Positions 11,113 to 58,803 of a DNA stretch of 64,000 nt are shown here, one piece after another. Under the pieces are notes generated by a model that worked only from the letters and a program-made list of their open reading frames with translations, searched no databases and was not told the DNA's origin. The stretch lies in contig NZ_JANIOA010000008.1 of the NCBI RefSeq assembly GCF_025175675.1, positions 1 to 64,000 of the forward strand, given 5' to 3'. Positions within the stretch are counted from its first letter, which is position 1. Each line of letters begins with the position of its first letter. Both the position numbers and the translations under genes were made by a program. The stretch is from Sedimenticola hydrogenitrophicus (GTDB lineage: Bacteria; Pseudomonadota; Gammaproteobacteria; Chromatiales; Chromatiaceae).

Positions 11113-11400
11113 ATGAAAAACCCTTGTTCCAGGAAGAAACTGACGGCCATCATCAGCGGATGCCTCGCCGTGGTCGCCCTCGGCGGTAGCCCCCTCTACG
11201 CCGCCAATCCCTGTGCGGCCAAACCGGCAAATCCCTGTGCGAAACCGATGAATCCATGTGCGGCCAATCCCTGTGCGGCCAAGAACCCCTGCGCGGCGAA
11301 GCCGATGAATCCGTGTGCGGCCAATCCTTGCGCGGCCAATCCCTGTGCGGCCAAGAACCCCTGCGCGGCCAAGCCGATGAACCCCTGCTCCGCGAAATAA
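11113..11400 (+). CDS. Secreted NPCAAK-repeat protein (small)
   Basis: 95 residues: an N-terminal signal peptide (SRKKLTAIISGCLAVVALGG, cleavage near YAA-NPC) followed only by tandem units NPCAAK, NPCAA and NPCAKPM, ten NPC triplets in all. Every unit supplies one cysteine, one proline and usually a lysine, so the mature 65-residue protein is about 15 percent cysteine and strongly basic. The signal peptide is closely related to that of the cytochrome at 12568, so the two are paralogues. AAAGGAGACGC precedes the ATG. I know no characterised family. A periplasmic thiol or metal-binding role is plausible inference. Real translation is supported by signal peptide, ribosome site, promoter and paralogue. 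Confidence 0.75.
   Translation: MKNPCSRKKLTAIISGCLAVVALGGSPLYAANPCAAKPANPCAKPMNPCAANPCAAKNPCAAKPMNPCAANPCAANPCAAKNPCAAKPMNPCSAK
11200..11397 (+). repeat. Tandem 15-24 bp coding repeats (NPC units)
   Basis: Imperfect in-frame repeats encoding NPCAAK and NPCAAKPM units. Synonymous changes between units (tgt/tgc, gcg/gcc) show that the amino-acid pattern, rather than only the DNA, has been kept. Confidence 0.7.
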
Positions 11401-11545
11401 CTGTGGTCGGCGGCGGGGGTAGGGGGTACTGACCCGCCGCCGTCATTGCGCGGCTCAGCCTCACTATCTTCCGGTAAGGATTGGTTTTTTAGCTGCGAAT
11501 GAACGAAAATAGTAAATGGAGGGTGGATAAGCCGTAGGCGCATGC

Positions 11546-11586
11546 CATCCTCAGGTCCGTGAACGGTACATCCTTGTACCACTCCT
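11546..11586. repeat. Dispersed stem-loop repeat, copy 2
   Basis: It carries the hairpin GGTACA-TCCT-TGTACC with the same flanks as copy 1 (CATCCTC left, ACTCCT right). It sits about 40 bases before the gene at 11626. Confidence 0.6.
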
Positions 11587-11625
11587 CACCAATGCAGCTG
11601 AATTGCCGTCATACGGGAGAGTGAT

Positions 11626-12444
11626 ATGCTCAGGGTATTGGAATGGGTGGGCGAACGACTTGGGCGCTGGCTGAACCAACCCGCACATATTCATGATACG
11701 TCGCGGCCGACACCTGGGCATCTTCTCGTCTCCACGCTCCAACCGGGGGATGTGCTGCTGGTCGAAGGGAACAGTCGAGTGAGTGTGGCGATCAAGTATC
11801 TGACCCAGTCCACTTGGTCGCATGCCGCGCTCTACGTCGGACCTCAGGGCGACCGGCGTCCCGGGGTGGCCGGTGATCGGGAGCCCCCCTGCTTTGTAGA
11901 GGCCGATATCACGGAGGGTATCCGCCTGGTGGGCATTTCCGAGTTTAATGGCCTGCATAGCAGAATCTGCCGTCCAATCGGTCTGCGGGCCGCCGAACTG
12001 GAACAGCTGATCGCCTACGCGCTGTCCCGGGTCGGGCAACACTACGATCTCAGGAATGTGATCGATCTGGCGCGCTATCTGCTCCCGCCCCCCCCCGTGC
12101 CGGTACAGTGGCGCCGGCGCATGCTCGCGTTCGGTAGTGGCGATCCGACACGGGCGATCTGCTCGACCTTGATCGCCCAATGTTTTCAGTCTATTCGCTA
12201 CCCGATCCTGCCGATCGCCAGCGTGGCATCCGCGTCCACGCCCGGCTGTCGCGAGTGCACCAAAGAGAGCCTCAGGGTTCGGCATCACAGTCTGTTTGTG
12301 CCACGGGACTTCGATGTGTCACCTTATTTTCGGGTGATCAAACCCACCGTCGAAATGGGTTTCGATTTTCGCAAGTTGCATTGGGAGGATGAAAATCGGA
12401 ACGAACCGCAAATCACAACGGGTGAGGATTCAGTCTACTCTTAG
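11626..12444 (+). CDS. YiiX/YebB-like permuted papain-fold (NlpC/P60 superfamily) protein
   Basis: 272 residues. LQPGDVLLVEGNSRVSVAIK leads to QSTWSHAALYVG, whose His matches the catalytic histidine of the permuted NlpC/P60 group. The expected nucleophile cysteine is later, in AICSTLIAQCFQ. This family includes YiiX/YebB-type and lipid-modifying hydrolases; no substrate can be assigned. There is no clear signal peptide, although an N-terminal amphipathic helix (LRVLEWVGERLGRWL) may attach it to membranes. It lies between the two NPCAAK genes in the same direction. A weak ECF-like sequence (GGTAAGGAT near 11473) lies upstream. Confidence 0.7.
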   Translation: MLRVLEWVGERLGRWLNQPAHIHDTSRPTPGHLLVSTLQPGDVLLVEGNSRVSVAIKYLTQSTWSHAALYVGPQGDRRPGVAGDREPPCFVEADITEGIRLVGISEFNGLHSRICRPIGLRAAELEQLIAYALSRVGQHYDLRNVIDLARYLLPPPPVPVQWRRRMLAFGSGDPTRAICSTLIAQCFQSIRYPILPIASVASASTPGCRECTKESLRVRHHSLFVPRDFDVSPYFRVIKPTVEMGFDFRKLHWEDENRNEPQITTGEDSVYS

Positions 12445-12478
12445 CCATTGGCACATGAACGCCCATGAATACAACCAT

Positions 12479-12506
12479 TGTAAGGAATATAAAATCCCCG
12501 CGACTA
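12479..12506 (+). promoter_or_regulatory. Candidate ECF sigma promoter of the NPCAAK-cytochrome gene
   Basis: TGTAAGGAA (12479-12487), 13-base spacer, CGACTA (12501-12506), about 60 bases before the ATG at 12568. It has the same layout as the sites at 11033, 16749, 26382 and 34770. Confidence 0.65.
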
Positions 12507-12567
12507 ACCGCTGGAAATTCCCGCCTGAGGAAATATCAGGATTTTACCCATCAGAAGGAGAATAAAC

Positions 12568-13308
12568 ATGACCACAACTTTTTCCAGGAAGAAACTGACC
12601 GCCATTGTCGGCGGATGCCTCGCGGTTGTCGCCCTCGGCAGCGGCCCGCTGCAGGCCGCCAATCCCTGCGCCGCGAAACCGATGAACCCCTGCGCCGCGA
12701 AGCCGATGAACCCCTGCGCGGCGAAGCCGATGAACCCTTGCGCCGCAAAGCCCATGAACCCCTGCGCGGCCAAAAACATGTCCGCGGGCGTGACACGCCC
12801 CGCAGACTACAAGCCCTATAAGGGCGATCACGCGGCCCTGGTTGCCGAGGGCGCGAAGCTGTTCAAGGATACCAGCCTGAGCACCAACGGGATGTCCTGC
12901 AACACGTGTCACAACAACAACGGCATGTTCCAGGCCAGTTTCGCGCAACCGTATCCCCACTATGTGCAGATGGCCAATGACCAGTTCAAGCTGAAGGCGG
13001 TCCACGCCGATGAGATGGTCCAGCTCTGCATGGTCGCACCCATGGCCGCCAAACCGTTGCCCTGGGACTCCCGGGAACTGGCGGCCCTCGCCGCCTATGT
13101 CACCGAACAGCAGAAGGGCTTTGCCAAGCAGCACAAGACGGGGGCAATGAATCCCTGTGCGGCCAAGAATCCTTGCGCGGCCAAGCCAATGAACCCCTGC
13201 GCCGCGAAGCCGATGAACCCTTGCGCCGCGAAACCGATGAATCCGTGTGCGGCCAAGCCGATGAACCCCTGCTCCGCGAAGCCAATGAACCCCTGCTCCG
13301 CGAAATAG
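12568..13308 (+). CDS. Secreted cytochrome c flanked by NPCAAK repeats
   Basis: 246 residues: signal peptide (SRKKLTAIVGGCLAVVALGS, cleavage near LQA-ANP); five NPCAAKPM units (residues 32-69); a monoheme cytochrome c domain (about 80-185) with CNTCH at 111-115 and a probable methionine axial ligand in LCMVAPMAAKPL (155-159); then seven more NPC units to the end (194-246). The haem domain is therefore placed between two cysteine-repeat arms, an arrangement I do not recognise from any described protein. AGAAGGAG precedes the ATG. It is likely periplasmic. A haem carrier whose arms bind metal or sulfur is inference. Confidence 0.78.
   Translation: MTTTFSRKKLTAIVGGCLAVVALGSGPLQAANPCAAKPMNPCAAKPMNPCAAKPMNPCAAKPMNPCAAKNMSAGVTRPADYKPYKGDHAALVAEGAKLFKDTSLSTNGMSCNTCHNNNGMFQASFAQPYPHYVQMANDQFKLKAVHADEMVQLCMVAPMAAKPLPWDSRELAALAAYVTEQQKGFAKQHKTGAMNPCAAKNPCAAKPMNPCAAKPMNPCAAKPMNPCAAKPMNPCSAKPMNPCSAK
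12655..12778 (+). repeat. Tandem 24 bp coding repeats, N-terminal array
   Basis: Five near-identical 24-base units encoding NPCAAKPM. They would allow copy-number change by slippage without shifting frame. Confidence 0.75.
13147..13305 (+). repeat. Tandem 24 bp coding repeats, C-terminal array
   Basis: Seven NPC(A/S)AK units, mostly separated by PM, the last two with serine in place of the first alanine (NPCSAK). The final NPCSAK also ends the small paralogue at 11400. Confidence 0.75.
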
Positions 13309-13396: not shown

Positions 13397-14617
13397 ATGA
13401 ATGAATCTTTGAACAGACTATCGGATGTGGAGAAGGTGTCACCCACCGCTCCGGCATCCCGTAACGGCTCCCGGAGAGCCATTCAGTGGGGCGTATTTTC
13501 GATAGCGTCACTCGTTATCCTGGTGCTTGTTGCGTTTCTCGCCACGCCACGCCTGGCGCTGCTGCTGCTGTTGGGCGTTGCCCTGGGCATCACCCTGCAG
13601 CATGGCGCCTTTGGTTTTACCAGTGCCTACCGGCGCTTCCTGCTAAAGCGCGAAACTCCAGCGCTGCAGGCCCAGTTGCTCATGCTCGCCGTCGCCACGC
13701 TGCTGTTCGCGCCCTTTCTCAGCGAGGGCCAGTTTCTCGGCCGCGGCCTGATCGGCGCCTGGGCGCCGGCCGGCCTGCAGGTCGCCGCCGGGGCTTTCCT
13801 GTTCGGCATCGGTATGCAACTGGGTGACGGCTGCGGCTCCGGCACCCTCTACAAGGCCGGCGGCGGCGCACCGCGCATGGTCATCACGCTGCTCGCATTT
13901 TGTGCCGGCTCCTTCTGGGCCAGCCTGCACATGGTCCAGTGGCAGACATTGCCGGCGTTACAGACCCAGTCGCTTGCCGAACCCCTGGGTTATCCGTTGG
14001 CGGTCACCCTGCAGCTTGGATTCATCGGCCTGCTCGCCCTGCTGCTGCGTCGCTGGGGCGTGCGGCGCGATGCAGCACCGCGTATACGGCAGGGATTCTG
14101 GAAACGTCTGTCGACCGGCCCCTGGAGCCTGCCCGCCGCCGCCCTGGCACTTGCCCTGCTCGGACTGGCGACGTTGCTCACCGCCGGTCATCCCTGGACC
14201 ATCACCTGGGCCTTTACCCTGTGGGGCGCCAAGGCCGCGCTGCTTTTAGGCTGGGATCCCGCCACATCAGCCTTCTGGACCGGAGGCTTTCAGCAGGCGG
14301 CGCTCCAGGGCAGTGTATTACAGGATGTGACCTCGGTGATGGATATCGGCATCCTCCTCGGGGCGCTGGCCGCGACCGGGCTGGGTGGCCGCTTTGCGCC
14401 GTCATTCCGCATCCCGATGCGTTCCCTGGCGGCGGCCATTATCGGCGGTGTGCTGATGGGTTACGGCGCCCGCATCGCCTACGGCTGCAATATCGGCGCC
14501 TTCTTTTCCGGGGTCGCTTCGCTCAGCCTGCACGGCTGGCTGTGGATCATCTGCGCCCTCGCCGGCAGCGTGCTGGGCGTGTGCTGGCGGCCCCATTTCG
14601 GACTTTCGAATCGATGA
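13397..14617 (+). CDS. YeeE/YedE (TsuA-like) sulfur transporter
   Basis: About 406 residues with roughly ten membrane segments. It has the two family cysteine motifs, GDGCGSGTLYKAGGG in the first half and YGCNIGAFFSG in the second. TsuA-type members of this family take up thiosulfate, relaying it along conserved cysteines. The ATG at 13397 is chosen over a TTG three bases upstream. It follows the NPCAAK-cytochrome gene by 88 bases and overlaps the next gene by ATGA, so it heads a likely operon through 16598. Context points to movement of reduced sulfur across the inner membrane. Confidence 0.85.
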   Translation: MNESLNRLSDVEKVSPTAPASRNGSRRAIQWGVFSIASLVILVLVAFLATPRLALLLLLGVALGITLQHGAFGFTSAYRRFLLKRETPALQAQLLMLAVATLLFAPFLSEGQFLGRGLIGAWAPAGLQVAAGAFLFGIGMQLGDGCGSGTLYKAGGGAPRMVITLLAFCAGSFWASLHMVQWQTLPALQTQSLAEPLGYPLAVTLQLGFIGLLALLLRRWGVRRDAAPRIRQGFWKRLSTGPWSLPAAALALALLGLATLLTAGHPWTITWAFTLWGAKAALLLGWDPATSAFWTGGFQQAALQGSVLQDVTSVMDIGILLGALAATGLGGRFAPSFRIPMRSLAAAIIGGVLMGYGARIAYGCNIGAFFSGVASLSLHGWLWIICALAGSVLGVCWRPHFGLSNR

Positions 14618-15366
14618 ATAGTACAGATAGTGCAGCAATATCCCGTACACCCGCCATCCTGACACCTCCCGATCCGGCCCGGCTGCCCGCCGGGGTAATC
14701 GAGCAGATGCTTATTGCGGGCGACGAGGTCAATACCTGTATCCGGGCGCTGGAACGGGTCGGGCTCAACCTGGTGGGCGAGGTGCTCAAGGGCCAGGGCG
14801 AATTCATCGAGCTGGAGCATTATCCGAAGGATGATGTGTTCGACGACGAGACCCATGGCCAGTACTACTACCACGCCCACCGCGCCGATCACGGCGAACA
14901 CGGCCACTTCCACACCTTTCTGCGCGCCGGCGGCATGCCCGGGGATGCACGTCCCCTGGATTACCCCCTGGCCAGCGCCCCCTGGCCCCGGGGGGACGAG
15001 GCCATCGCCCATCTGGCGGGCATCTCCATGGATGCCTGGGGCCGGCCCATCGGGCTGTTCGCCGCCAACCGCTGGGTCACCGGCGAGACCTGGTACCCGG
15101 CAGACAACGTCATCGAGATGCTGCCACGCTTCGCCATCGGCCACGCTTGGCCCTCCTGGCCGCTGAACCGCTGGATCAGCGCCATGCTGCGGCTGTTCCG
15201 GCCCCACGTCGAGGCCCTGATCCTGCACCGCGATGTGGTGATCAATGCCTGGCAACAGGCCCATCCGCAGCGGGATGTGTTCGAGGACCGCGAGTTGGAA
15301 TTGACCGGTTATCTGCCCGTTTCGGTGGATGACTGGATGGCGGAATTGAGGCAGGTGGCTTCATGA
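14614..15366 (+). CDS. Histidine-rich conserved protein, unknown function (possibly DUF6969)
   Basis: 250 residues, start overlapping the transporter stop (ATGA) and stop overlapping the next start. A striking central segment, GQYYYHAHRADHGEHGHFHT, has five histidines in a short stretch and looks like a metal site. The protein has no signal peptide or membrane segment. It resembles proteins I loosely recall as DUF6969, but that name is uncertain. Translational coupling on both sides ties it to the YedE transporter and the pentaheme cytochrome, so a role in handling their substrate or cofactor is inferred. Confidence 0.65.
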   Translation: MNSTDSAAISRTPAILTPPDPARLPAGVIEQMLIAGDEVNTCIRALERVGLNLVGEVLKGQGEFIELEHYPKDDVFDDETHGQYYYHAHRADHGEHGHFHTFLRAGGMPGDARPLDYPLASAPWPRGDEAIAHLAGISMDAWGRPIGLFAANRWVTGETWYPADNVIEMLPRFAIGHAWPSWPLNRWISAMLRLFRPHVEALILHRDVVINAWQQAHPQRDVFEDRELELTGYLPVSVDDWMAELRQVAS

Positions 15367-16598
15367 CCCGGCTCCGTTTCCGAATCGCGTTTATCTGCTG
15401 GGCGCTGCTGATGTCCGGCGCAACGGTGTCACTGGCGGACAGCGATGCCGACCCTTCCATCGACAGCTTCCTCGACCGCCACTGGCAGCGCCCGCTGCCA
15501 CTCCAGGGGGAAGCGCCGGCGGGTTTTTCACCGCTGGAGAGCTCCCTGGATCCACGCGCCTGCGGCGCCTGTCATCCCCACCAGTTCCAGGATTGGAAGG
15601 ACAGCCTGCACGCCCATGCCATGGGTCCCGGCCTGCTGGGACAGCTCATCGAGATGGACCCGGCCAACCGCGAGGAACACCAGGCCTGCCTGCGCTGCCA
15701 CGCCCCCCTGGCGGAGCAGGCCGGGGAAGTGGCGACCTGGATCGCCGAGGGCCACAGCGGCCTGGCCCCGGCCACGCCTACCGGGGTGCCCACCGGCCCA
15801 CTCTTCAACCAGGGGCTGATCTGCACCGCCTGCCACCTGCGCGCCTGGGAGATTCACGGCCCGCCCGCCCGCAACGGGGATGAAAGCGGGAAAACCGCCG
15901 GACCACATGGCGGTTTCAATCCCGACGTAGCCTTCGAGTCTTCACGCTTCTGCGCCGCCTGCCACCAGTTCGAGTCGGACGGCTTCGCCCTCAACGGCAA
16001 ACTGCTGGAAAACACCTTCACGGAGTGGCGCGCCAGTCCCCAGGCGGCGGCCGGGCAGAGCTGCCAGTCCTGCCACATGCCGGACCGCCGCCACCAGTGG
16101 CGCGGCATCCACGACAAGGATACCGTGCTGTCGGGGGTGGAGATCGGGCTTGACGGTGTCACGGCCACCGGCCCGACGCTCTCCGCCAGGCTCAGCCTGA
16201 CCAACAGCGGTGTCGGCCACCACTTCCCCACCTACGTGACGCCCCGGGTGGTGATGGAGGCGGTACAGTTGGACGCGGACGGTACGTTGCTGCCGCAGAC
16301 CCGGGAGGAGCGGATCATCGCCCGGCAGGTGAGCATGGACCTGAGCGAGGAGTTGTCCGACACCCGACTGGCGCCGGGCGGGAGCATCACTCTCGACTAC
16401 CGGCAGCCGCGCGATCCGCAAGCCGGTTCCCTGCGCCTGCGCATCCGCGTCGAGCCGGACCGCTTTTACCGGGACTTCTACCAGGCAATGCTTGATAACG
16501 GCTGGGCCGGTAAAGGCAGCGGGTTGCTGCGGCGTGCGCTCGATGCTGCCGATGCGTCGGTCTTTACCCTGTTTGAGCGGGAGATTCCATTGCTATGA
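15363..16598 (+). CDS. Periplasmic pentaheme cytochrome c (cytochrome c554-like)
   Basis: 411 residues with a signal peptide (about 1-25) and five haem c motifs: CGACH (67-71), CLRCH (109-113), CTACH (154-158), CAACH (197-201) and CQSCH (234-238). A beta-rich C-terminal domain of about 160 residues (LSARLSLTNSGVGHHFPTY onward) lacks haem sites. The spacing and the GVGHHFPTYVTPR sequence recur in multihaem cytochromes related to c554. It is the last gene of the transporter/DUF operon and would carry electrons in the periplasm, possibly to or from the NPCAAK-cytochrome. No partner oxidase or reductase is adjacent. Confidence 0.85.
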   Translation: MTRLRFRIAFICWALLMSGATVSLADSDADPSIDSFLDRHWQRPLPLQGEAPAGFSPLESSLDPRACGACHPHQFQDWKDSLHAHAMGPGLLGQLIEMDPANREEHQACLRCHAPLAEQAGEVATWIAEGHSGLAPATPTGVPTGPLFNQGLICTACHLRAWEIHGPPARNGDESGKTAGPHGGFNPDVAFESSRFCAACHQFESDGFALNGKLLENTFTEWRASPQAAAGQSCQSCHMPDRRHQWRGIHDKDTVLSGVEIGLDGVTATGPTLSARLSLTNSGVGHHFPTYVTPRVVMEAVQLDADGTLLPQTREERIIARQVSMDLSEELSDTRLAPGGSITLDYRQPRDPQAGSLRLRIRVEPDRFYRDFYQAMLDNGWAGKGSGLLRRALDAADASVFTLFEREIPLL

Positions 16599-17211: not shown

Positions 17212-18177
17212 ATGAACGAAACACTTCCGCTACTGCTGAATACCGATTTTCCGCTTCTGCGGCGCCGACGAATCGAGACCGTGCAGGCCAACCTCGGTTA
17301 CCGCTGCAACCAATCCTGCCTGCATTGCCATGTGGCGGCAGGCCCGAAACGCGTGGAAGCGATGAGCCGGACGACCATGGCCCTGCTGTTACTCTTCGCG
17401 CGCCGGCAGGGCATCACCACCCTGGATCTCACCGGTGGCGCCCCGGAACTCAACCCGGATTTCCGCCACCTGGTGATCGCCGCGCGTGAACAGGGGCTGC
17501 ATGTCATCGACCGCTGTAATCTCACCATACTCAACGAACCCGGCCAGGAGGATCTGGCGCGGTTTCTCGCCGATAACGACGTCGAAATCATCGCCTCGCT
17601 ACCCTGCTACCTGGAGGAGAATGTGGACCGGCAACGGGGCTCGGGGGTGTTCGACGGCAGTCTCGCCGGCCTGCACCGGCTCAACGCACTGGGTTACGGA
17701 GAAGCGGACAGCAGCAGACGGCTGAATCTGGTCTACAACCCTGCCGGACCGAGCCTGCCGCCCGATCAGCGGCAACTGGAGGCCGACTACCGGACGCAGT
17801 TGCGGTCCCGCTTCGGCATTGTCTTCAACCAGCTGTACGCCCTGGCCAACATGCCGATCCGCCGCTTCGGCAGCCAACTCATCTCCCACAACGAATTCTT
17901 TGACTACATGAATCTGCTCAAGGGTGCGCACCAGGAAGGCAACCTGGCCTCGGTGATGTGCCGTACAATGCTATCGGTGGACTGGCAGGGCCGGGTGTAT
18001 GATTGTGACTTCAACCAGATGCTGGGGCTGCCACCGGGTGGTAGCAGCGAACCCGTCCACCTGTCCATACTGCTTGATCACGACTTTGCCGGCCGCCCGA
18101 TCCGGGTGGCCGACCATTGCTACGGCTGTACCGCCGGCCAGGGCAGCAGTTGCGGCGGTGCCCTGAATGATCATTGA
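17212..18177 (+). CDS. arsS: Radical SAM arsenosugar biosynthesis-type protein ArsS
   Basis: 321 residues. The radical SAM cluster motif is CNQSCLHCH (CxxxCxxC), in the N-terminal context VQANLGYRCN typical of the family. The C-terminal half carries a cysteine-rich region (MCRTMLSVDWQGRVYDCDFN and CYGCTAGQGSSCGG) matching the DUF3641 domain of ArsS. ArsS is thought to add the deoxyadenosyl group in arsenosugar biosynthesis. In many bacteria the family occurs without known arsenic chemistry, so the substrate is uncertain. It is 45 bases after the c553-like gene and precedes an arsenate-reductase-like gene. Confidence 0.85.
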   Translation: MNETLPLLLNTDFPLLRRRRIETVQANLGYRCNQSCLHCHVAAGPKRVEAMSRTTMALLLLFARRQGITTLDLTGGAPELNPDFRHLVIAAREQGLHVIDRCNLTILNEPGQEDLARFLADNDVEIIASLPCYLEENVDRQRGSGVFDGSLAGLHRLNALGYGEADSSRRLNLVYNPAGPSLPPDQRQLEADYRTQLRSRFGIVFNQLYALANMPIRRFGSQLISHNEFFDYMNLLKGAHQEGNLASVMCRTMLSVDWQGRVYDCDFNQMLGLPPGGSSEPVHLSILLDHDFAGRPIRVADHCYGCTAGQGSSCGGALNDH

Positions 18178-34211: not shown

Positions 34212-34670
34212 TCAACCGCCACTGACAATCAGTTTGTAGTCGGGCGTCGGATTGAGGGGGCAGGAGTAGACATACTCACCCGGTTTCAGGTCGACCGGGT
34301 AGTCCTGGGTCTTGCCGGTGGTCAGTCCGCCACCCGAGACGCTGGGCAACCGGGCACGGTTGACCAGACCATCTCCGCGCAGCCAGAAACCCAGTTCATA
34401 GGGTACATTTTTGTTGCTGACCCTGAATACATAGCGCCCGGGCGTGAGCGTGATCACCTCGGCCTCGGCCAGTCGCTCGTCGCCCGTCCGCTGGTTGATC
34501 GCCTGGCAATCGCCGATATTCCGGGATGAAAAGCCCCGGTCGATACCCCGCTCGCTCTCCAGGAACTGACACGGCACCTGGGTCAACTCGATGACTTGCG
34601 TCTCCGCCAACGCAGGGGCACTCGGAACAGGGGCCAACATAACCAGGCCGGCCATCAGTAATTGACGCAT
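34212..34670 (-). CDS. Exported cupredoxin-like protein, unknown function
   Basis: 152 residues. The signal peptide (MAGLVMLAPVPSAPALAE) is followed by a beta-rich domain with PGRYVFRVSNKNVPYELGFW and a C-terminal GEYVYSCPLNPTPDYKLIV. The latter resembles the last strands of cupredoxins, where a cysteine ligand sits between two strands, but the usual histidine pair is not clear. AGGAG precedes the ATG. It is divergent from the ECF sigma gene, with 206 bases between them, so it could be part of the same regulatory unit; no ECF-type promoter was found on its side. Confidence 0.6.
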   Translation of the reverse strand: MRQLLMAGLVMLAPVPSAPALAETQVIELTQVPCQFLESERGIDRGFSSRNIGDCQAINQRTGDERLAEAEVITLTPGRYVFRVSNKNVPYELGFWLRGDGLVNRARLPSVSGGGLTTGKTQDYPVDLKPGEYVYSCPLNPTPDYKLIVSGG

Positions 34671-34797: not shown

Positions 34798-34876
34798 TAC
34801 CTACAGACGCATATCGATACCTTTTGTGCATCCTGGTGTTTACAATAGTCGCTGTTTCATCGGCCGCGGGCAGATC

Positions 34877-35482
34877 ATGAACAGTGAAATGGACGGTAAC
34901 ACCAGCACAGCGACGGAGCTTTGGCTGCAAGAGTCGGAGATCGCCACTCTGCGCCAGGAGATGCTGCGATTCGCGAAACTGCAGTTGCGTGATGTCGCCA
35001 CGGCGGAAGACGCGGTACAGGAGGCACTATCGGCGGCCTATGCGACACGGGAGCGTTTTGCCGGTCGGGCACAGGTAAAGACCTGGATATTTTCCATCCT
35101 GCGCAACAAGATCATCGACCAGATACGCAGTCATACACGCCATCCAACCCACAGCCTTACCCGGGACGATGGCAGCGATACAGAGGTCGGCGCACTTTTT
35201 GACGAGGGTGGGTACTGGCACAAAGCGGCGCGCCCTGCCGATTGGGGCGATCCGGAAGCGGCCCTGGGAAGCGAGCAGTTTTGGATGATTTTTGAGATCT
35301 GTCTAAACGCCATGCCGGAGAATACAGCACGCATCTTCACCATGCGCGAATTTCTCGGCCTGGAAACGGCGATGATCTGTACGGAACTCGGCATTAGCGA
35401 GAGCAACTGCTGGGTAACCCTGCATCGGGCGAGATCACGCCTGCGCCTGTGCCTGGAAGAGAACTGGATCAACCGCGGGTAA
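34877..35482 (+). CDS. ECF-type RNA polymerase sigma factor (TIGR02943-like)
   Basis: 201 residues. Sigma region 2 (DVATAEDAVQEALSAAYATR, then KTWIFSILRNKIIDQIR) and region 4 (ARIFTMREFLGLETAMICTE, then ISESNCWVTLHRARSRLR) are clear. A linker of about 45 residues (FDEGGYWHKAARPADWGDPE) is characteristic of the sigma subfamily I recall as TIGR02943. The next gene, six bases downstream, encodes a small zinc-finger protein likely to be the anti-sigma factor. The promoter at 34770 suggests self-activation, and identical promoter patterns precede the NPCAAK genes. Confidence 0.9.
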   Translation: MNSEMDGNTSTATELWLQESEIATLRQEMLRFAKLQLRDVATAEDAVQEALSAAYATRERFAGRAQVKTWIFSILRNKIIDQIRSHTRHPTHSLTRDDGSDTEVGALFDEGGYWHKAARPADWGDPEAALGSEQFWMIFEICLNAMPENTARIFTMREFLGLETAMICTELGISESNCWVTLHRARSRLRLCLEENWINRG

Positions 35483-45457: not shown

Positions 45458-47448
<1,991 letters not shown>

Positions 47449-55522: not shown

Positions 55523-58216
55523 TCAGACGATATTACGCGGTGCGAAGGACATGGAGCGGAACTCGCTCTTGTACTTCGACTCGCCGATCTTCTTCACCTT
55601 GGCCACGCCCATCTTGTAATTGTAGTTGCCGCTGATCTGGTCAGGCACGCGACCCTGCAACGCATTACTGGGCTGATTGGTGTTGAGATAGTAGGAGTAC
55701 AGGGTCCCCTTCTTTACATGGGGCGTCACGATGGCGACGGCGGTCACTGCCGCCTTGTTCAGCTCGATCCAGCCATTCTTCAGCCGCGAGGCAAAACTGA
55801 AATCCGCATCATCCTGTGCCTTGATGCTCTGCCTCAGGTTGGGCACCCGCTCGGAGAACAGCATCAACTGATCGCCCGACTCGATACCGCGCGCGGCGGC
55901 GTCGTCCGGGTGGATCTCGGTCCAGTTTTCCGGCCAGCGCTGGGCGATGTAGGCGCGCCGGTCGACGTCGTCAAATCCGGACTGCCAGATCTCGTTGACC
56001 CGGCCGTTGGTGTGCCACAACTCGTCATCCTTTGGCTTCATCCACTCCCAGTAGTCGGAGAACAGGCTCCAGGGGTGTTTCTGGATGTTCACCTTGCCGG
56101 ACTGGGTGTTGAAGTGGGTACCCTTCTTGTTCACCATGTTGGTGGCCATGCTGCGACCCTCTGCCTCCATCTGTTCCGGGGTAAGGGTGGTGTCGTGCAG
56201 CCGCTTGCTGCCCAGCAGTTCGCCCGTCTTGTAGTTGTAGAAGGTCGGCCCCTGGATACCGGAGGTACCCAATTCACGCAATTTTTCGTGCAGGGTCTTG
56301 CCCTCGGCATGCGCCGCCACCTTGATCATGTGGTAGGCCTTGGGTCCGGTACGGCTGAAGCGCGAGGACTCCTCGCATACCTGGTTGGCATCCTTCCAGT
56401 CGAAACCGTCGAAGCCCATGCGCTTGCCCAGTTCCGCCATGATCCACCAGTCCGGCTTGGCGTCCCCCGGGGCGTCGTAGAACTTGGAGTAGAGCCGCAG
56501 GCGCCGCTCGCCGTTGGCGCGGATGAAGTCCGACTCGCCCCAGGTGGCCGCCGGCAGCACGATGTCCGCAAAGCGCGAGCCGATCGGATCGCGCAGGTAG
56601 ATCTCCTGATTGAGCACCACGGTACCGCCGGAGTCGGCGCGCGCCTTCAGGGTGTCGATGATCTCCTGCTTGTCGAAGGAGCGCACCTGGTGCGGATTAT
56701 TGGTCACCTGCTCCTCGAACTTGGCATTGAGGCCGGCGGAGCCGCACATCGCCTGAATCCAGGTGGTACCGATGACATGGGCAAAGCGGGTGTGCCCGGC
56801 GTAGAAATAGCGGTCACAATCCATCGACTGACGCCGCCGTCCCGCGTGTTTCTGGGGAGATTTATTACGGGGATAAGCGCCGCCGCTCTGGTAACCACGC
56901 TGATGGCCTCCCAGACGGCCCACCATCTGGCCCGGCCGGCCACCCGCCCCGCAGACCGTAGCCAGCGTGGCAACGGCATTGGTGTTGCCGGTATTGTTGG
57001 ACCAGTAGAAGCCCTTCTCGATGGCGAAGGAGGCCTTCACCCGGCGGCCGTCCGCCTTCGGCTTGGCCAACCACTCGGCCGCCTTGTAGATGTCGGCGGG
57101 GTCGATATTGGCGATTTTTGCGGCTTCCTTGGGGTCATACTCCTTCTGCGCCAGGTTCCACTGCTTGTAGTCCTCGAAGCCCTTGGTCTGGAACTGGCCC
57201 CAGGTGGTGCGCCACTGCCACGGGGTGTTGCGGGTGCCTTGGCCAAAGCCGGAGTCGGACGCCCACTGGTTGTTGACCCACTTCTCGATCCACTCCTTGT
57301 CTTCCCAGCCGTTCTCCAGGATGACCCGCAGGATGGCGCCCAGCACCGGTGTATCGGTTCCGGGGTCGATCTGCAGGAACAGGGCGTTGCCGCGGCTCTT
57401 GGCATAGGCGATACCCGCCGTTTCGCGCACGTTGAGCCAGACCGTCTTCTGACCGGCATCGATCGCCGGCTTGATAAATTGGTTAAACAGGATGGTCTTG
57501 GTTTCGTAGGGATCGGTACCGGCGATCAATAGCGTCTCGGCAGCGGCCCAGTCCTGGTAGGAGGGGGCAAAGTTTTCAAACCCGGCATCACGGAACCCTG
57601 GCGTCGAGGTGACATCGGAAGGTGTGTCATGGAAGGCAAAGTTGGCAGTATTCATATGCCGCAGCGCAAACTTGCTGATCGCGTAGGTGTTCTCGATGTA
57701 CTGATAGAGATAGGTCTTCATGCCGTAGGCATTGGCGCCGTGCTTCTCCACCACGTGCTTCATCACCTCGGTGGCCACATCCAGGGCCATGTCCCAGGAG
57801 ACCGGTTGCAGGGTGCCGTTGATGCGGATCATCGGCGACATCAGCCGATCCCGGGTCGGTTTGTTGGGGTTGTAGACCTTCTGGGCGATGCAACCGCCGC
57901 GAATGGAAGAGTCGCCCGTGAGGTTGACCGCCTGGGCCTCCTTGTCCGGTATGATCACCACATTGTGCGGACGACCGTCATGCATCACCACGTTGTGCTG
58001 GGTGGGGGCCACCCAGGCCTGCATCGGTCCGGTCGGGAACGAGACTTTGAAGGCGTTCTCATGGGCCTGGGGTCCGCCATCCGGGGCACCCACCGGCCAG
58101 CGGTAGACCTTGTAGCCGCAGGCCACGATGCAGTAATCGCAGCAGGTGGTCAGCACCTCCGCGTTCACGGGAGGCAGCGGCGCCTTGTCCTCGGGAAGAT
58201 AGTACTTGGTTGACAT
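55523..58216 (-). CDS. idrA: Iodate reductase-like molybdopterin catalytic subunit (IdrA; AioA relative)
   Basis: 897 residues of the DMSO reductase family, AioA/IdrA branch. Near the N-terminus C26-x2-C29-x3-C33 (CCDYCIVACGY), with serine (S103/S104 in TGDSSIRGGC) at the fourth position, predicts a [3Fe-4S] cluster as in AioA. Arg434 and His438 (GRLGGHQRGY) match the AioA substrate-site pair, but the arsenite-binding His195/Glu203 region is replaced here (SDVTSTPGFRDAGF). No signal peptide; export should be with the TAT-carrying Rieske subunit. Being in one operon with two diheme peroxidases is the hallmark of iodate reductase rather than arsenite oxidase. Confidence 0.78.
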   Translation of the reverse strand: MSTKYYLPEDKAPLPPVNAEVLTTCCDYCIVACGYKVYRWPVGAPDGGPQAHENAFKVSFPTGPMQAWVAPTQHNVVMHDGRPHNVVIIPDKEAQAVNLTGDSSIRGGCIAQKVYNPNKPTRDRLMSPMIRINGTLQPVSWDMALDVATEVMKHVVEKHGANAYGMKTYLYQYIENTYAISKFALRHMNTANFAFHDTPSDVTSTPGFRDAGFENFAPSYQDWAAAETLLIAGTDPYETKTILFNQFIKPAIDAGQKTVWLNVRETAGIAYAKSRGNALFLQIDPGTDTPVLGAILRVILENGWEDKEWIEKWVNNQWASDSGFGQGTRNTPWQWRTTWGQFQTKGFEDYKQWNLAQKEYDPKEAAKIANIDPADIYKAAEWLAKPKADGRRVKASFAIEKGFYWSNNTGNTNAVATLATVCGAGGRPGQMVGRLGGHQRGYQSGGAYPRNKSPQKHAGRRRQSMDCDRYFYAGHTRFAHVIGTTWIQAMCGSAGLNAKFEEQVTNNPHQVRSFDKQEIIDTLKARADSGGTVVLNQEIYLRDPIGSRFADIVLPAATWGESDFIRANGERRLRLYSKFYDAPGDAKPDWWIMAELGKRMGFDGFDWKDANQVCEESSRFSRTGPKAYHMIKVAAHAEGKTLHEKLRELGTSGIQGPTFYNYKTGELLGSKRLHDTTLTPEQMEAEGRSMATNMVNKKGTHFNTQSGKVNIQKHPWSLFSDYWEWMKPKDDELWHTNGRVNEIWQSGFDDVDRRAYIAQRWPENWTEIHPDDAAARGIESGDQLMLFSERVPNLRQSIKAQDDADFSFASRLKNGWIELNKAAVTAVAIVTPHVKKGTLYSYYLNTNQPSNALQGRVPDQISGNYNYKMGVAKVKKIGESKYKSEFRSMSFAPRNIV

Positions 58217-58218
58217 GA

Positions 58219-58803
58219 TTATGACTCCTGGGATTCCATCAGGTTTTGATTACGGCCAAACAGCAGACCCATGACGCCGACGGCGTAGATGTCATCGCCA
58301 TCCAGCTCCAGCAGTACCTGGGGAATGCTCTGGTAGGCCTGGCCCGAGACGATAATGCCGTGACGGGTCAGGTCATAGGTGGAGAGGTGCAGCGGGCACT
58401 GGCCCAGCACCCGGTGCTCGCCCACCGCCTGATACTTGCCGTTCATGAAACCTCCCTGATGGGTGCAGAGGTAGCTGAACGCCACCACATCGCGCTGCGG
58501 ACCGATGCCGCCGCCGGCCTTGGCCCCATCCATCTTGACCACGAAGCACTGGGAGTTCTGGTTCTTGTCGGGATAGTTGAAATCCAGCGGGGTGTTCTCC
58601 TTCAGCTGGCTCAGTTTGCCGATGTGCTGACGGGGATAACCCACCACCCGGGCCTTGGCCTGGGCCTCGCCCGGAAACAGGTTGAGTGAGATGGTACTGA
58701 CAGCGACCGCCGTGGTACCGGAGTACATCAGAAACTGACGGCGGTTGAGCATGCACTGGGCGTGCCCGGCGGCTGACTCGTCTTTTTTGATTAATTCAGA
58801 CAT
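58219..58803 (-). CDS. idrB: Rieske subunit with TAT signal (IdrB-like)
   Basis: 194 residues. Twin-arginine signal LNRRQFLMYSGTTAVAVS, so the folded complex would be exported together. Rieske [2Fe-2S] ligands are C113-T-H115 (LCTHQGG) and C136-P-L-H139 (QCPLHLS). The extra disulfide cysteines of bc1-type Rieske proteins are missing, as in AioB. The start overlaps the previous stop (TAATG), and the stop is 2 bases before idrA, so translation is coupled. It passes electrons between a c-type cytochrome and the molybdenum subunit. Confidence 0.85.
   Translation of the reverse strand: MSELIKKDESAAGHAQCMLNRRQFLMYSGTTAVAVSTISLNLFPGEAQAKARVVGYPRQHIGKLSQLKENTPLDFNYPDKNQNSQCFVVKMDGAKAGGGIGPQRDVVAFSYLCTHQGGFMNGKYQAVGEHRVLGQCPLHLSTYDLTRHGIIVSGQAYQSIPQVLLELDGDDIYAVGVMGLLFGRNQNLMESQES

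Follow-up and report, generated by a model that had tools for sequence, protein, structure and literature searches.

An exported cytochrome with NPC-repeat arms beside a YeeE-family transporter and DUF6969: a candidate sulfur-handling system in Sedimenticola hydrogenitrophicus and other proteobacteria

Introduction

The sulfur carrier SoxY holds sulfur on a cysteine of a flexible arm. The reaction of SoxYZ is described in part of PMC4423706, passages of which also place the catalytic domain of SoxA at residues 177-282 and, together with passages of PMC6879331, implicate an Arg four residues ahead of the ligand Cys in substrate binding by TsdA; a section of PMC6879331 gives the His/Cys hemes of SoxAX potentials at or below -400 mV. 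A portion of PMC11582611 calls the import of sulfur into the cytoplasm poorly understood, deals with importers of the TsuA/YeeE and SoxT kinds, and reports two cysteines of TsuA as indispensable. Cysteine-rich ribosomally synthesized and post-translationally modified peptides (RiPPs) named captophorins or bufferins, made by MNIO and PME1 enzymes, are presented in excerpts of PMC13097082 as partly repeat-built precursors modified by an adjacent enzyme. Here we describe two exported proteins built of repeated NPC units, one of them a cytochrome with a repeat arm on each side (the armed cytochrome), and the genes that accompany them in a 64,000-nucleotide stretch of Sedimenticola hydrogenitrophicus, the whole of which we call the window (positions 1 to 64,000 of the forward strand of contig NZ_JANIOA010000008.1, RefSeq assembly GCF_025175675.1).

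Judged by sequence comparison, parts of this locus resemble the SoxA fold, the idea of the SoxY arm, YeeE importers and captophorin repeats, and no family that we tested covers the whole. The armed cytochrome shares with the SoxA/TsdA cysteine-ligated cytochromes (PF21342) a predicted fold, a CxxCH motif and a cysteine approximately 40 residues later, but differs from them in having one haem motif, no substrate-binding Arg and two thiol-repeat arms. With SoxY(Z) the likeness is one of principle, sulfur on the cysteine of a flexible arm, although many equivalent NPC cysteines take the place of the one in SoxY, SoxY is a separate gene, and SoxY found no match in Pfam and NCBIfam scans of the window proteins. 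Like captophorins, the NPC proteins are cysteine-rich, partly repeat-built and adjacent to a putative enzyme, but their repeat is NPCAAK, or xPC more generally, where captophorins have EGKCG, and DUF6969 stands in place of MNIO. The scans of window proteins revealed no MNIO (no search was made for its partner PME1), and an MNIO-type gene cluster occurs in 4 of the 80 cytochrome loci described below, at a median distance of ~3.8 kb and with one member verified as PF05114; a captophorin/MNIO identity was therefore rejected, there being no consistent MNIO beside the NPC genes. The window transporter is, like TsuA, a PF04143 protein with both essential cysteines, but it adjoins an exported thiol protein and DUF6969, where the neighbour of TsuA is TsuB. 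A high cysteine content is shared with metallothionein-like thiol proteins, unlike which the NPC proteins carry single cysteines evenly spaced after NP on a probably disordered chain, with CC or CxC clusters absent from both window proteins.

The initial annotation of this DNA had proposed a secreted, thiol-rich and possibly undescribed family, and our searches agree with it. No Pfam or NCBIfam family exceeded its cut-off across the repeats of the window NPC proteins, a Cornifin match over the repeats being of low complexity and below its cut-off. The literature searched, which omits most subscription journals, contained neither the NPCAAK string nor DUF6969, and nothing on an NPC repeat with a periplasmic cytochrome, on SoxA-like proteins with cysteine repeats and mercury, or on such a cytochrome of Gallionella/Sideroxydans. 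The NPC-repeat/DUF6969 gene system is widespread in bacteria and apparently undescribed. The conserved gene set makes an open question, that of how periplasmic sulfur is stored and moved ahead of YeeE-type import, directly testable; DUF6969 gains its first functional context, and a new use of cysteine-ligated haem is suggested.

The NPC-repeat proteins and their operon

The features that carry the argument, all on the plus strand of the window, are as follows.

11113-11400, +, stand-alone exported NPC-repeat protein of 95 amino acids (aa), with a signal peptide and 10 mature NPC units
12568-13308, +, exported cytochrome of 246 aa with an NPC arm on each side, from its open reading frame (ORF), domain and repeat counts
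12661-12774, +, N-terminal arm of the cytochrome, 5 NPC units, low model confidence, probably disordered
12778-13137, +, monohaem core, residues 71-190, SoxA/TsdA-like (PF21342) by prediction, mean predicted local distance difference test (pLDDT) score 90-98 per block of ten
12898-12912, +, haem motif CNTCH, residues 111-115, the single CxxCH of the protein
13027-13029, +, Cys154 in DEMVQLCM, predicted axial ligand of the haem, conserved in armed and armless relatives
13147-13305, +, C-terminal arm of the cytochrome, 7 NPC units, low model confidence, probably disordered
13397-14617, +, YeeE/YedE-family sulfur transporter (PF04143, 217.7 bits against a cut-off of 27), with C146 and C364
14614-15366, +, DUF6969 (PF22308, 274.9 bits against a cut-off of 27), His-rich, start overlapping the YeeE stop
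15363-16598, +, exported cytochrome c with five CxxCH motifs, start overlapping the DUF6969 stop

The two NPC proteins are paralogous, with 82% identity across query residues 4-54, and the description given by the initial annotation, two paralogous signal peptides followed by ten NPC units in one protein and by twelve around a one-haem cytochrome in the other, was confirmed. The short protein has an eleventh NPC in the n-region of its signal peptide, and one of its units is a five-residue NPCAK. In the long protein, 5 of the 12 units are N-terminal and 7 C-terminal of the haem domain, and the cysteines outside NPC comprise signal-peptide C17, the haem-motif pair C111 and C114, and C154, so that the mature protein has 12 cysteines in NPC, 2 in CNTCH and Cys154 as its complete set.

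The synonymous variation between units, from which the initial annotation had argued for selection on the protein, also held: across 23 units (the signal-peptide unit counted), pairwise codon differences comprised 662 synonymous against 198 replacement changes, and 5/5 and 11/12 of the 18-mers among full units were distinct. Since the units differ mainly by silent codon changes, the repeat is not a product of chance, with the limit that a comparison confined to the NPC codons is circular because the units were chosen by NPC itself. That the architecture recurs across further genera and classes is stronger evidence than the codon comparison.

The gene order in the window is armed cytochrome, YeeE, DUF6969 and pentahaem cytochrome, with overlapping start and stop codons among the last three. 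The NPC chain is fused to both ends of a one-haem SoxA-like cytochrome, which stands ahead of the other three genes. The two NPC genes are not adjacent, as an amidase gene (11626-12444) intervenes. The operon, the partnership with DUF6969 and the SoxA-like haem, with a cysteine as its likely ligand, all go beyond the initial annotation.

Occurrence of the armed cytochrome and its neighbours

Using the long protein as query at a threshold of 1e-8, we found matches in 17 of 210 genomes of an order-level sample, two of which (L021 and L022) are armless distant relatives, leaving 15 genomes with arms. In a class-level sample, 23 of 369 genomes matched: 7 had the armed cytochrome, 2 a closer relative with at most one NPC, and 14 an armless distant relative. 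A further genome scan gave 145 relatives, the best 80 of which were kept as loci; the search patterns behind them partly fixed the DExxQxC motif. They contain 82 core-like ORFs, and because two of these are multihaem proteins caught by the pattern, the denominator for the cytochromes is 80. The loci come from Sedimenticola, tubeworm endosymbionts, Rhodocyclales, Gallionella, Sideroxydans, Denitromonas, Motiliproteus, Rhodospirillaceae and others, and at least two NPC units are present on both sides in 73 of the 80 cytochromes. NPC holds 874 of the 908 arm cysteines, and the spacing between arm cysteines is most commonly C-x5-C, with spacings of 2 to 19 also occurring; the units are therefore kept while the spacers vary. 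Fourteen of the 80 loci also encode a stand-alone protein with four or more NPC units. Spread of the cytochrome by plasmids was rejected, with one partial match only among 72,556 plasmid records.

The genes of the window operon recur close to these cytochromes. DUF6969 is found in 43 of the 80 loci, 39 of them within 3 kb of the cytochrome (0.086 per kb within 3 kb against 0.005 beyond), YeeE in 29 (24 within 3 kb) and a multihaem cytochrome in 24 (21 within 3 kb). At the level of whole genomes, all 11 of the 210 order genomes that have DUF6969 also have a two-armed cytochrome, which 15 genomes possess, an agreement inflated by relatedness because the 11 genomes belong to three genera. Within the genus of the window, 4 of 9 genomes have both DUF6969 and the armed cytochrome and 5 have neither, three of those five being 65-90% complete.

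DUF6969 and its cysteine-repeat neighbours

A search for DUF6969 itself gave matches in 30 of 369 class genomes, 8 of 204 phylum genomes and 166 plasmid records. By hand, in loci that mostly lack the cytochrome, an exported Cys-repeat protein was found beside DUF6969 in 35 of 42 cases (27 of 30 from the class, 4 of 7 from the further phylum set and 4 of 5 from plasmids), a count that includes four Cys-repeat proteins that are not of the xPC kind (L176, L177, L199, L214), two with just two xPC units (L182, L184) and three loci whose repeat is the NPC cytochrome (L165, L168, L196). The seven loci without such a protein are L172, L173, L192, L194, L197, L198 and L201, with L173 and L197 at contig edges. 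A strict scan found a Cys-repeat protein in 23 of 40 loci versus 1 of 226 control strand-windows, the 40 including the window's own locus and three from plasmids that exceed the 3.55-kb controls in length. The repeats beside DUF6969 include NPCAAK, RGGNPCAPSA, DNPCSLDE, SPCGL, APCAA, KCAPKC and GCCGCC, with Cys alone in common, and none of eight DUF6969-linked peptides searched against Pfam exceeded a family cut-off. In one genome (L175/L221), two large Cys-rich repeat proteins flank DUF6969, with an armed cytochrome also present, and these large proteins have GAC and CC clusters alongside NPC.

In Sinorhizobium meliloti RCAM1115 an annotated sulfurtransferase gene comes first, followed by YeeE/YedE, then an ORF of 124 aa with four PC units and finally DUF6969. 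The stop of the 124-aa ORF (L236, 4625-4996; also in L237 and L202) overlaps the DUF6969 start; this ORF carries no listed annotation in the three records, and DUF6969 in RCAM1115 is annotated as hypothetical. S. meliloti thus offers a tractable model for the peptide/DUF6969 system. In the Burkholderia glumae plasmid p81s4p (L214, 1026-9100), genes for thioredoxin, CcdA, an extracytoplasmic function (ECF) sigma factor, zf-HC2 and a major facilitator superfamily transporter precede the Cys-repeat peptide, and DUF6969, methylthioadenosine phosphorylase and arsenosugar genes follow it. The B. glumae peptide gave sub-threshold matches to a Cys-repeat Pfam model and a Cys-rich RiPP model, which we did not use.

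Alignment of 27 DUF6969 sequences demonstrated invariant His at positions 69, 87, 89, 96, 98, 100 and 133, and the structure model (mean pLDDT 91) places the HxH and HxHxH motifs on predicted neighbouring strands. No convincing solved relative of the fold was found (best Foldseek E 0.27; best VIA Z 3.2), which is not proof of a new fold; likewise, there was no match among PDB sequences at E up to 5 and no NCBIfam family at E up to 0.1. By eye, DUF6969 has no evident signal peptide, and we therefore take it to be cytoplasmic.

The YeeE transporter and rhodaneses

C146 and C364 of the window YeeE align with Cys91 and Cys293 of TsuA, and among 33 YeeE sequences a Cys is present at one essential place in 33/33 and at the other in 32/33, with one gap. 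The window YeeE scores 79.1 bits against the cut-off of 400 for the NCBIfam TsuA equivalog and is also below the NCBIfam YedE/FdhT cut-off. YeeE is present in 15 of 41 DUF6969 loci (one a weak match of 31 bits), and the order YeeE, peptide, DUF6969 is observed in 13 of these 15. A rhodanese of one cluster is found in 8 of 32 extended DUF6969 loci, directly after DUF6969 in 7 of them, and YeeE, peptide, DUF6969 and rhodanese are consecutive in six loci, six rather than seven because L235 lacks a clear YeeE. These rhodaneses match PF00581 (90.5 bits), have a signal-like N-terminal stretch by eye, and carry a late Cys, at the catalytic place, that aligns with the matching Cys of 1uar. The gene set that the sequences show to recur comprises YeeE, an exported peptide or arm whose flexible chain bears many xPC units, DUF6969 and sometimes a rhodanese.

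The haem core of the armed cytochrome

The structure model, made from an alignment of the window protein and 54 sequences hand-picked for spread from 88 references (omitting two sequences with masked letters and several partial ones), is confident at residues 71-190, with the arms mostly at pLDDT <50. PF21342 matches the core at 41.2 bits against a cut-off of 27, and the core has the CxxCH and the later conserved Cys of SoxA/TsdA; the NCBIfam SoxA equivalog scores 36.2 bits against its cut-off of 110. The nearest solved structure is Rhodovulum SoxA (Z 8.8, root-mean-square deviation (rmsd) 2.6 A over 87 residues), and TsdA structures give Z 7.2-7.7, the best of 7.7 at rmsd 3.3 over 100, in a tool for which Z <8 may reflect merely a common arrangement; Foldseek returned no match at E <0.001.

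Cys154 pairs with a SoxA cysteine in the profile alignment, and all 18 distant relatives retrieved with the protein query retain the haem-domain Cys, 17 of them lacking any NPC (L036 and L037 lie near the armed group, a single NPC being present in L037). His/Cys ligation of the core haem is therefore predicted from conservation. In the other 16, armless relatives (L021, L022, L038-L051), xM(I/V)NWC replaces DEMVQLC with the Cys kept and NPC absent. The same genome has two separate SoxA-like genes, the products of which both carry the Arg implicated in substrate binding. We conclude that the core is SoxA-like in predicted fold and, probably, in ligation, which does not imply thiosulfate-coupling activity.

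Proposed function and alternatives

Because the genes adjoin a sulfur transporter, DUF6969 and sometimes a rhodanese, they probably serve the handling of reactive sulfur outside the inner membrane. We propose, giving it about an even chance, that the NPC proteins are exported multi-thiol carriers of an undescribed sulfur-handling system, acting as a periplasmic sulfane-sulfur carrier or relay, since a thiol chain adjoins an importer with both essential cysteines and, in places, a rhodanese. Periplasmic thiols would accept sulfane sulfur, coming from rhodanese or formed at the haem, as persulfide or thiosulfonate, and would move it by way of many equivalent arms to YeeE, for import, or into further oxidation. 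The His/Cys haem would tie the redox state of the thiols to the pentahaem cytochrome and the respiratory chain, such that in the window the fusion to a likely low-potential haem, with the pentahaem cytochrome in the same operon, may couple thiols to electron transport, and cytoplasmic DUF6969 would act on the repeat prior to its export or else on imported sulfur. Also in favour of this reading are the overlapping codons of the operon, the clustering of DUF6969 and YeeE near the cytochrome, the retained haem Cys, and thioredoxin and CcdA relatives that, in the loci that have them, stay within 3 kb of the cytochrome. Gene content, gene order, conservation and similarity of fold are what the analysis shows; sulfur as the cargo, the direction of transfer, the haem ligation and any action of DUF6969 are the steps that we infer, with the sulfur role the most likely and the DUF6969 role the least certain. 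The initial annotation had left the choice between binding metal and carrying sulfur; the next genes, and the rhodaneses of some relatives, favour sulfur, and mercury loses ground for reasons given below. The polymer that it had pictured gained no support.

Several observations weigh against a sulfur relay of this kind. YeeE was not seen in 26 of the 41 DUF6969 loci, many of which have only ~1.5 kb of flank, and no YeeE is annotated by the peptide-DUF6969 pair of S. meliloti R14 pSymA. A rhodanese accompanies the armed cytochrome in just 1 of 80 loci, 3.4 kb away, and the three rhodanese matches in the window's genome are all on other contigs. SoxY is present in 190 of the 210 order genomes, so that the ordinary Sox carrier is already available in most. 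The core also barely exceeds the CCP_MauG cut-off (26.6 against 25.6 bits), the structural support for the SoxA fold is moderate, and the Arg at Cys-4 is absent. To these must be added the genes for metals and arsenic in the window and around related genes, given below.

The same adjacencies can be read differently if DUF6969 takes the NPC repeats as its substrate. In such a RiPP-like arrangement, a cytoplasmic His-rich metalloenzyme would modify the cysteines of a self-exporting precursor to give a metallophore or a protected thiol, by analogy with the captophorins made by MNIO (PMC13097082, in the parts noted above), with a different enzyme. We hold this reading to be less likely than not. 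It would account for the adjacency of DUF6969 with varied repeat types that share only Cys and for the overlap, in S. meliloti, between the peptide stop and the start of DUF6969, and the seven invariant His in a confidently modelled protein with no convincing fold match are as expected for it. A weak structural search proves no new fold, however, and seven of the 42 DUF6969 loci, two of them at contig edges, have no such protein; the arms can moreover do without DUF6969, since 4 of the 15 armed order genomes have none. More broadly, DUF6969 may be the first of a new class of metalloenzymes that modify peptides or load sulfur, with exported xPC-repeat proteins as its substrates. In this alpha-, beta- and gamma-proteobacterial system a multi-thiol peptide would work alongside YeeE as importer and a secreted rhodanese, and in Sedimenticola, tubeworm symbionts and iron oxidisers it would have been fused to a cysteine-ligated cytochrome, wiring sulfur capture directly to electron transport. 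We consider this tentative proposal rather more likely to fail than to hold.

It is unlikely, in our estimation, that the thiol arms buffer thiophilic metals or metalloids such as Cu(I), Hg(II) or As(III) in the periplasm. In favour of this reading, the window has genes linked to metals and arsenic:

17212-18177, +, ArsS arsenosugar radical S-adenosylmethionine protein (442 bits), close downstream of the operon
45811-47448, +, mercury(II) reductase MerA (TIGR02053, 577.6 bits), far from the NPC genes
55523-58216, -, probable AioA large subunit, adjoining AioB and recognised by eye only
58219-58803, -, AioB, arsenite oxidase small subunit (TIGR02694, 114.3 bits)

AioB, ArsS and MerA are thus above cut-off in the window, and the B. 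glumae peptide-DUF6969 pair lies near arsenosugar genes. Among the 80 cytochrome loci, 24 have MerA-like genes (9 within 3 kb), 10 have ArsS (none within 3 kb), 23 an ECF sigma factor (16 within 3 kb), 9 zf-HC2 and 16 a cupredoxin-like protein (14 within 3 kb). However, the density of MerA-like genes, whose identity was confirmed by protein scan for the window copy and one other (L100) only, is practically equal within and beyond 3 kb (0.020 against 0.018 per kb), and MerA is above cut-off in 19 of the 210 order genomes, just 3 of which have the cytochrome. A role in mercury resistance was lowered on these grounds, as the MerA-like genes are not centred on the cytochrome and MerA hardly co-occurs with it genome-wide. 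In addition, the variable cysteine spacing gives no fixed metal motif, and the partners YeeE and rhodanese are sulfur proteins.

Improbable, in our view, is a SoxA/TsdA-type enzyme that couples thiosulfate oxidatively to the cysteines of its own arms, which would replace SoxY. SoxA and TsdA are the nearest folds, PF21342 is above cut-off and Cys154 aligns with a SoxA cysteine, but the best structural match spans SoxA residues 54-141, outside the catalytic domain as delimited in the cited part of PMC4423706, and the protein has one CxxCH only. All 101 entries counted have Met, Phe, Ala or Val in place of the Arg at Cys-4 (80/80 in a first set, found partly with a pattern fixing M or F there, and 21/21 in a second set found without it, some species being in both), and this lack of the Arg lowers the case for a self-contained thiosulfate-coupling enzyme. 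Least probable is that the repeats merely cross-link or anchor the cytochrome in a structural disulfide mesh with no carrier role. Long low-complexity arms at low model confidence would suit a mesh, as would thioredoxin relatives (11 of the 80 loci) and CcdA relatives (10 of the 80), all of them within 3 kb, but it leaves the linkage of YeeE, rhodanese and DUF6969 to free-standing peptides unexplained.

Other genes in the window and in the cytochrome loci

The remaining features of the window are neighbours or loose members.

11626-12444, +, YiiX/YaeF-like permuted amidase (PF05708), YiiX/C92-like, between the two NPC genes
34212-34670, -, cupredoxin-like exported protein, recognised by eye, a distant and loose member
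34826-35482, +, ECF sigma factor of the TIGR02943 family, a distant and loose member

The cupredoxin-like protein, which resembles the one recurring close to the NPC cytochrome (within 3 kb in 14 of the 80 loci), matched no NCBIfam family. The amidase occurs in 11 of the 80 cytochrome loci, in 3 of them within 3 kb, and is probably a neighbour and not a core member. DUF302 is present in 18 of the 80 loci (15 within 3 kb) and HD-GYP in 16 (12 within 3 kb).

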